From the NCBI GenBank assembly GCA_001775715.1, contig MEYC01000090.1, positions 58,329-95,026 on the forward strand: DNA of 36,698 nucleotides. Direction: 5' to 3'. The notes under the pieces are model-generated. The model saw nothing but the letters and a program-made list of their open reading frames with translations. It was not told the origin of the DNA and ran no database searches. Shown piece after piece: positions 11,606 through 14,600 of this stretch. The DNA comes from Candidatus Aminicenantes bacterium RBG_16_66_30 (GTDB lineage: Bacteria > Acidobacteriota > Aminicenantia > Aminicenantales > Saccharicenantaceae). A program made the translations under genes and the position numbers. Position 1 is the stretch's first letter; each line of letters starts with the position of its first letter.

Positions 11606-14600
11606 ATGGCCAAAGAACATAAGAAACCGTATCGCGAGAGGGTCGATTTCTCCAAGATCAAGGCGGTCTTCCCTATGCCCGCCCTCTTGGATATCCAGAC
11701 CCAGTCCTACCGCGAATTCCTCCAGATGGACCTCCTGCCGGAGGAACGGAAGGACACCGGCCTCCAGGCCGCGCTGAAGGACGTTTTCCCGATCTCCGAC
11801 TTCAAGGAAACGACCGAGCTCGAGTTCCTCAGCTACTCGATCGGGACCTGGGAGTGCAAGTGCGGTCGGCTCAAGGGCGTCGAGAACTCCCGGGCCAAGT
11901 GCAACGCCTGCCAGACGCTCCTGCCCGCGGCGATGGAGCTCTCGGAGAAGGAGGTCTGCCCCTTCTGCGGGGCGGCCCGGAAGATCGAGATCCCGCTCTG
12001 CGAGCATTGCGGCGACCGCGTCGGGCTCAAGATCAAGTACACCCCGATGGAGTGCATCCAGAAGGGCTACACCTACTCCATCCCGCTCAAGCTCAAGGTC
12101 CAGCTCGTGTCCTGGGAGAAGGACGCCGTGACCAAGGCCAAACGGCTCAAGCACATCAAGCAGCAGGAAGTCTACTTCGGCGACATCCCGCTCATGACCG
12201 AGAAGGGGACGTTCATCTTCAACGGCATCGAGCGGGTCGTCGTCAGCCAGCTCCAGCGCTCGCCGGGCGTGTTCTTCCGCCAGGCCGAGACCAAGGGCTT
12301 CTTCATCGCCAAGATCATCCCGTACCGCGGCGCCTGGGTCGAGTTCGAGCACGATCCCAAGAGCCTCATCTGGGTCCGCCTCGACCGCAAGAAGAAATTC
12401 CTGGCCACCGTGTTCCTCCGGGCCCTCGGCTACGGCACCGACGAGGATATCCTCAAGCTCTTCCATAAGATCCTCCGGGTCGTCCCCGAGGACGGCAAGC
12501 TCGCCTGGGAGGTCGGGGACGCTCTCGTCGGCCGGTCGCCGGCCGAAGACGTCACCGACGCCAAGGGCCGCAAGGTCCTGGCCCCGGCCAAGAAGAAGAT
12601 CACCCCGGACGTCCTGACGGCCCTCAAAGAGGCCGGCGTCACGCGCGTCCCGCTCCTCAAGAAGGAGCTCCTCGGCGCCTACTCCCTCGTCGCCATCAAG
12701 GGCAAGGTCCGGACGAACGAGCCGCTCGAGGACGTCCATATCGATCTCCTCCTCGGCAAAGGGGAGCCCTTCGAGGTCTTCTTCCCCGAGGAAGAGCGGG
12801 CCGGGCTCATCCTGAGCACGACCCTCAAGAAGGACCTCCGCAAGGACCAGCCCTCGGCCCTCGGCGAGATCTACCGGAAGCTCCGCCCGGGCGAGCCGCA
12901 CACGCAGGAGAGCGCCCACAACCTCTTCCAGAGCCTGTTCTTCAACCCCCAGAAATACAACTTCTCCCGCATCGGGCGGCTGAAGTTCAACATCAAGCTC
13001 GGCCTCCAGACGGCGCTCGAGGACAAGACCCTGGCCCCGGGCGACTACGTCGAGGTCATCAAGTACCTCCTCAACCTCCGCTTCGGCGAGGGGACGGTCG
13101 ACGACATCGACCACCTCGGCAACCGCCGGGTCCGCTCCGTCGGCGAGCTCGTCGAGAACGCCTTCCGCATCGGCTTGACCCGCATGGAGCGGACGATCAA
13201 GGAGAAGATGACCATCACGGCCGACCTGGCCGCGGCCATGCCCCAGGACCTCATCAACTCCAAGCCGGTCATCGCCGCGCTGAAGGAGTTCTTCGGCAGC
13301 TCCCAGCTCTCCCAGTTCATGGACCAGATCAACAGCCTGGCCGAGATCACCCACAAGCGCCGCCTCTCGGCCCTCGGGCCCGGCGGCCTCAGCCGCGAGC
13401 GGGCCGGCTTCGAGGTCCGCGACATCCAGACCTCCCACTACGGCCGGATCTGCCCAGTCGAGACGCCGGAAGGCCCGAACATCGGCCTCATCTCCTCGCT
13501 CAGCTGCTTCGCCCGGGTCAACGAGTACGGCTTCGTCGAGACCCCCTACCGGAGGGTCGAGAACGGCCGGATCATCGACTACGTCAAGGTCCTCCACCCC
13601 GGGACGAGCGACTACAAGATCGGCGACATCGTCAAGAAGGACGAGATGGCCAAGGCCCTCGACCGGCTCCGGGACGCCAAGGCCCGCCAGCTGCCGGCCG
13701 TCGAGCCCCACTGCTACTACCTGACCGCCTGGGAAGAGGAGAAGCACAACATCGCCCAGGCCAACGCGCCGGTCGACGAGCGCGGCCGGTTCGTCAACGA
13801 GCTCGTCAGCGCCCGCGAGCGGGGCAACTTCAAGAACATCCCCCGCGAGCAGATCCAGTACATCGACGTCTCGCCGAAGCAGCTCGTCTCGCTCTCCGCG
13901 GCCCTCATCCCGTTCCTCGAGCACGACGACGCCAACCGGGCCCTCATGGGCTCGAACATGCAGCGCCAGGCCGTTCCGCTCCTCCGGCCGGAGGCCCCCC
14001 TCATCGGCACGGGGATCGAGGGCCTCGTCGCCGTCGGGTCGGGCGACGTCATCGTCTGCCGCCGGGCCGGCAGCGTCGAGTTCGTCGACGCCGAGCGCAT
14101 CATCGTCCGGGTCGACGAGAAGGAGCCCGGCCGCAGCTACGACGTCGGCACGGACCTCTACGCCCTGATCAAGTTCCTCCGGACCAACCAGAACACCTCG
14201 ACCAACCACCGGCCCATCGTCCGCAAGGGCGACCGGGTCGTCCGTGGCCAGGTCCTGGCCGACAGCTCCTGCACGGACGGGGGCGAGCTGGCCCTCGGCC
14301 GCAACGTCCTCACCGCCTTCATGCCCTGGCGGGGCTACAACTTCGAGGACGCCATCATCGTCAGCGAGAAGCTCATCAAGGAGGACATCTTCACGTCCCT
14401 CCACATCGTCGAGGAGACGATCGAGGCCCGCGATACCAAGCTCGGCCCCGAGGAGATCACCCGGGACATCCCCAACGTCCCCGAGAACCTCCTCCGCAAC
14501 CTCGACGAGAACGGCATCGTCCGCATCGGCGCCCACGTCAAGTCGGGCGACATCCTCGTCGGCAAGGTCGCCCCGAAGGGGGAGACCCAGCTATCGCCCG

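Follow-up and report, generated by a model that had tools for sequence, protein, structure and literature searches.

The zinc-binding domain (ZBD) of the beta-prime subunit of RNA polymerase (RNAP) is a multi-purpose contact site, with roles for RapA, upstream DNA, ribosome coupling and termination (PMC8501970). Insertions in the large subunits have been catalogued too, and beta-i4, i9 and i11 were listed for Acidobacteria by Opalka et al. (PMC2939025). A survey of such BEAN/HABAS insertions omits unmatched small insertions of <50 residues and does not mention zinc (PMC11515920). The beta protrusion is gripped by SutA, which wedges the lobe open and tunes promoter opening (PMC9300723). Here we describe a 60-residue, cysteine-rich insert in the beta protrusion of Candidatus Aminicenantes bacterium RBG_16_66_30, encoded by rpoB on contig MEYC01000090.1. 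The whole stretch of DNA analysed, 36,698 nucleotides, is called the window, and positions are those of the window.

The insert is found throughout the phylum Acidobacteriota, and its eight cysteines vary in natural RpoBs as two nested sets of four. Taken as a whole, it is best explained as a nested two-site zinc module with an outer site like that of the beta-prime ZBD, gained once and repeatedly reduced. We give this reading a probability of about 0.65. The features concerned are:

11606..15889, + strand: rpoB, encoding the RNA polymerase beta subunit of 1427 amino acids (TIGR02013, 1708.6 bits; Pfam Rpb2 domains)

11846..12025, + strand: the 60-residue insert, RpoB residues 81-140, in the beta protrusion (Rpb2_1), missing from solved and plasmid RpoBs and phylum-wide in Acidobacteriota

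11843..11893, + strand: N half of the outer module, residues 80-96, with C84 and C86 (mean pairwise identity 64.7%)

11894..11992, + strand: inner hairpin, residues 97-129, with C99, C102, C118 and C121, the putative zinc site B (from natural variants)

11993..12034, + strand: C half of the outer module, residues 130-143, with C132 and C135, which would complete the putative zinc site A with C84 and C86 (from natural variants)

16087..16170, + strand: the beta-prime ZBD in rpoC, in profile comparisons the closest relative of the outer module

A sequence-only reading of the window had proposed an eight-cysteine insertion in RpoB. Residues 81-140 match the letters it quoted, with Cys at 84, 86, 99, 102, 118, 121, 132 and 135. 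Phmmer alignments to the solved RpoBs listed end at residue 78-80 and restart at 144-147, which shows that the flanks of the insert are contiguous in those proteins. For other phyla, the sample consists of solved structures and of rpoB genes on plasmids. In plasmid records from Pseudomonadota, Bacteroidota, Fusobacteriota, Bacillota and Actinomycetota, the DNA that matches these query residues is shorter by about 165-230 bases, and the five plasmid RpoB records that were extracted (four phyla) are all without the insert, that of Bacillus reading SLGEPKYPVE. When a profile of the insert and its flanks was searched against the PDB, there was no RpoB among the 60 matches listed (E<=10). The segment is a real insertion, then, and not ordinary RpoB sequence in solved or plasmid-borne RpoBs. 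It lies within Pfam RNA_pol_Rpb2_1 (the beta1/protrusion domain), at about E. coli beta residues 82-85 in our own alignment; beta-uD1 comprises E. coli residues 1-152 (PMC11515920, Table 1).

Most of 297 Acidobacteriota genomes gave an unbroken match over the insert in whole-genome searches. RpoB N-termini were extracted from 225 Acidobacteriota sequences, 189 of them distinct. All eight Cys are kept in 167 of the 189, which excludes chance occurrence, and the insert is exactly 60 residues long in all 38 full-length representatives. The earlier guess that the feature might be clade-wide was borne out beyond its own terms, since the cysteines are conserved in relatives across the phylum; restriction to Aminicenantes was considered and rejected. 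A scan of window-sequence patterns over 84,980 species genomes, a single-sequence query that reaches close relatives only, returned 25 RpoB relatives with titles nearly all of Aminicenantes or Acidobacteria. No insert was confirmed in viral contigs. One contig titled 'Clostridiales bacterium' (L046) carries an Aminicenantes-type rpoB with the insert, and the record is probably mislabelled. No paper in the literature searched names the RpoB insert, and the bare insertion may already be catalogued, most likely in Lane and Darst 2010.

Two apparent losses were set aside. G458 has an insert-less rpoB (L224/L273, G458:C72), and L273 clusters with Pseudomonadota in the RpoB tree; G403 has a second rpoB without the insert (L223, G403:C19), whose sequence reads as that of a gammaproteobacterial contaminant. 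In both cases bin contamination appears to be the cause. The insert could act as a quick contamination check for acidobacterial bins and as a phylum marker in sequence data.

Natural variants that keep some of the cysteines bear on how these pair. There are 13 distinct partial-Cys sequences, representing at least seven independent events on a tree of 63 full-length RpoBs with the insert taken out (outgroups from four phyla, families labelled by f-numbers). The independence of events rests on this tree and, for f15, f36, f50 and f24, on insert-bearing relatives within the same family. If the sets are C84/C86/C132/C135 (site A) and C99/C102/C118/C121 (site B), exactly one site is whole in 13 of 13 variants. 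Sequential pairing leaves a site whole in none of the 13 and crossed pairing likewise in none, and both were rejected on that count. In every variant C84 and C132 share one fate, retained or lost, and so do C99 and C121.

Site A stands alone in four lineages: f88, in which the hairpin is deleted (GRWACSCGELEGIEHTRKGTVCNYCGDRV), G543, G511 and G062, the last of which also retains C118 alone. Site B stands alone, with the outer set broken, in three: family f42 (WKSRSG...IDEVCG), G113, and G388 with G316. The inner hairpin was deleted or lost by itself in four lineages. Because an internal deletion takes out adjacent knuckles anyway, f88 and G543 are weaker evidence on pairing; the substitution cases carry the argument, and complete losses are uninformative. 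As each of the 13 variants keeps one nested set, the two zinc sites would be nested, not side by side. We infer zinc binding from the sequences, and two zinc sites, the number suggested by the sequence-only reading, are probable. Its arrangement of them as adjacent clusters is very probably wrong: C84-x-C86-x12-C99-x2-C102 is probably not one site, C84 and C86 going with C132 and C135. In an AlphaFold model of the isolated insert (pLDDT 70), both ends (residues 3-6 and 63-66) are predicted as strands, which a nested hairpin requires.

On the RpoB tree every deep acidobacterial lineage has the two-site insert, and the outgroups are all without it. Judged from this distribution, it is ancestral within Acidobacteriota and was later cut down or lost repeatedly. 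The simplest reading would be a single gain and later decay, the gain lying on the Acidobacteriota stem or deeper, in sister phyla outside the sample. The branching order of the deep nodes is not claimed because node support is low. Family f57 is a complete clean loss with the junction GDPKYTIDEC, nested among insert-bearers; f13 and f35 show full loss and have the one-site family f88 as their sister; f60, made up of two single-contig genomes, shows full loss with a Cys-poor remnant left; and G243, also a full loss with a remnant, is sister to the one-site G543. The junction in f57 (L266, L267) looks ancestral, and precise excision and gene conversion from an insert-less rpoB fit it equally. 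Twice, a one-site version has an insert-less lineage as its sister, f88 (L274-L275) with f13 and f35 (L268-L270), and the pair L276 and L272 (f50), which suggests a stepwise decay in which the inner hairpin went first and the outer module second. Lineages without the insert yielded no relocated free-standing copy, only RpoC and weak generic zinc-ribbon matches.

Profile comparison connects the insert with the beta-prime ZBD. Aligned by hhalign to the acidobacterial beta-prime ZBD, the insert profile gave a probability of 95, and of 97 with the inner hairpin removed. Natural one-site sequences are a fairer test, because our own hairpin cut happens to leave a spacing of 12; their probabilities were 68 (f88), 94 (G511) and 92 (G543). 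The hhalign scores, 38.8-44.9, were above all 60 shuffles in which Cys, or Cys and the following Gly, were held fixed (maxima 22-32). Outside RpoB, the insert profile matched RpoC best in 9 of 14 whole genomes (E 7e-5 to 6e-4). In 35 of 38 sequences the residues around C132/C135 are closer to those around beta-prime C85/C88 (RGVICDKCGVEV) than the residues around C99/C102 are, and for this reason the counterpart of C85/C88 is better sought in C132/C135. The beta-prime likeness noticed by the sequence-only reading thus holds as kinship, but not by way of the C84-C102 spacing on which it was based; it lies rather in the outer site.

Several results weigh against the nested, ZBD-related reading. 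In the genome of the window itself RpoC is not the best non-RpoB match (E 0.016). Given the whole insert, local profile alignment to beta-prime pairs C99/C102, not C132/C135. Generic zinc ribbons fit the insert comparably or better, mostly in its second half (DZR, best member E 2.7e-7). Foldseek of the insert returned nothing significant, and AlphaFold confidence is moderate (pLDDT 70 for the insert alone, 64 for residues 1-640). Compensating beta changes after insert loss came to M41 only, in 3 of 5 lineages. Because lineages without the insert exist and its loss leaves almost no shared trace in beta, the insert is dispensable over evolution.

Common descent of the outer module and the beta-prime ZBD is likely and not proven, because profile kinship is present, generic ribbons are comparable and the fold search is uninformative. 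The alternative is convergence, in which the likeness to the beta-prime ZBD is that of zinc ribbons in general. The insert is short and Cys-rich, generic zinc-ribbon families score comparably, and no nucleotide-level repeat between the insert and the rpoC ZBD was found among the 20 largest repeat families. Scores far above the Cys+Gly-fixed shuffles and the rank of RpoC in 9 of 14 genomes argue the other way, and we regard convergence as a serious contender that falls short of the likelier account. On the side of common descent, a copy of the beta-prime ZBD may have moved into the beta protrusion in the Acidobacteriota ancestor and later acquired another zinc hairpin within its loop; we offer this particular course tentatively, at somewhat less than even odds.

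Separately, L090 (the insert of G072, in the first row of alignment A3) has a match to the methionyl-tRNA synthetase (MetRS) zinc region (NF001100, E 9.6e-5), and structures of MetRS come up repeatedly high in the ranking of the fold search of the insert, which was not significant.

The nested two-site reading suggests the following structure and role. The module would have entered the beta protrusion at a turn, in a single event that dates to the Acidobacteriota ancestor or earlier. Site A (C84, C86, C132, C135), at its base, would be a knuckle pair like that of the beta-prime ZBD and probably derived from this domain of the neighbouring subunit, and site B (C99, C102, C118, C121) would close a hairpin that is set into the site A loop. 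Several later reductions would have left A only, B only or nothing. The two zincs would keep a rigid knob on the protrusion, whose conserved outer face (NWECKCGxLxGLEHLR) may dock a protein partner, be it a transcription factor, sigma or a neighbouring part of RNAP. Such docking could tune promoter opening or elongation, much in the way that the beta-prime ZBD offers a contact site in another part of RNAP. The outer N half has a mean pairwise identity of 64.7%, against 57-71% for RpoB core stretches, and the inner hairpin outside the Cys has 21%. A zinc-stiffened knob with its outer face touching a partner outside beta fits better than a catalytic or strongly nucleic-acid-binding part. A docking role as such, useful yet dispensable, is the guess that we favour, a speculative one with the odds somewhat against it.

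The main rival to docking is that the module decorates the structure and has no specific partner, with zinc keeping a neutral insert folded and RNAP tolerating it. This would agree with the repeated independent losses, including the clean excision in f57, with the lack of compensating change in beta and with the poor conservation of the inner hairpin apart from its Cys, but it sits badly with a length of 60 in 38 of 38 full-length representatives and with an outer N half as conserved, phylum-wide, as the RpoB core; we think it rather less likely than not. Binding of nucleic acid, either upstream promoter DNA or nascent RNA, is more doubtful still. The insert has profile kinship to the ZBD, for which stabilisation of upstream DNA and a part in termination have been reported (PMC8501970), yet the insert's mean net charge is -0.1 (range -7 to +5) and the inner hairpin has no conserved positive charge or basic patch suited to such binding. 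Two side-by-side zinc ribbons (C84-C86-C99-C102 and C118-C121-C132-C135) are very improbable, because both sites would be broken in all 13 partial variants, even though C-x-C-x12-C-x2-C is the beta-prime spacing, CxxC-x10-CxxC is usual for zinc ribbons and profile alignment of the whole insert chooses C84-C102.

The gene order around rpoB is ordinary (nusG-rplK-rplA-rplJ-rplL-rpoB-rpoC-rpsL-rpsG-fusA-tuf). Upstream of nusG, an ORF at window positions 7293-7796 has a weak Metal_resist match (PF13801, 24.2 bits; cut-off 29.2).

The insert places a predicted zinc module on the beta protrusion, a conserved part that binds at least one promoter-opening factor, and it does so throughout a phylum that is large, abundant and little studied. 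Should the beta-prime origin be true, a functional RNAP module would have been duplicated from one large subunit into the other, and both large subunits of a whole phylum would carry a contact module of ZBD type, with natural A-only, B-only and null variants. The natural series of both sites, outer only, inner only, remnant and clean loss lends itself directly to a comparative study of the purpose of a lineage-specific RNAP insertion.

Like the beta-prime ZBD, the insert has a C-x-C-G ... C-x2-C-G-x2-V framework in its outer module, with a [WY]-E-C-x-C-G start, and a four-Cys C-x-C ... C-x2-C site (C84/C86 and C132/C135 by covariation, with a natural four-Cys version in f88); the likeness extends beyond the ligands, as hhalign scores above the Cys+Gly-fixed shuffles indicate. 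The two differ in that the insert is in the RpoB protrusion and not in the N-terminal part of RpoC, which keeps its own ZBD. The insert also has a predicted second zinc hairpin in its loop, is confined to one phylum as far as sampled and is dispensable over evolution. With SutA it has the docking surface, the protrusion, in common, whereas SutA is a separate protein and, as far as reported, does not bind zinc.

Four knuckles are paired 1-4 and 2-3 in the DnaJ Cys-rich domain, and the knuckles of the insert pair in the same way by covariation (13/13). The insert is without CxxCxGxG repeats, however, and the DnaJ model matches one member only, with an E value of 0.16. With the double zinc ribbon (DZR, PF12773) it shares four CxC/CxxC knuckles for two zincs and weak profile matches, the RpoB of the window scoring 11.4 bits against the Pfam cut-off of 27.3 and some relatives higher; unlike in DZR, the pairing is probably nested, not tandem, as no variant fits the sequential order.

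Lineage-specific RNAP insertions are already known as a kind, and this insert is a variant that we did not find named in the literature. It resembles beta-i4, i9 and i11 and the BEAN/HABAS domains in being a domain inserted in a conserved subunit and inherited by a large clade. In contrast to them it is small and Cys-rich and is located in beta-uD1, not in uD2/uD3, the BEAN sites, or at the listed type 4 site. By position, size and Cys content, the insert is neither BEAN nor HABAS.
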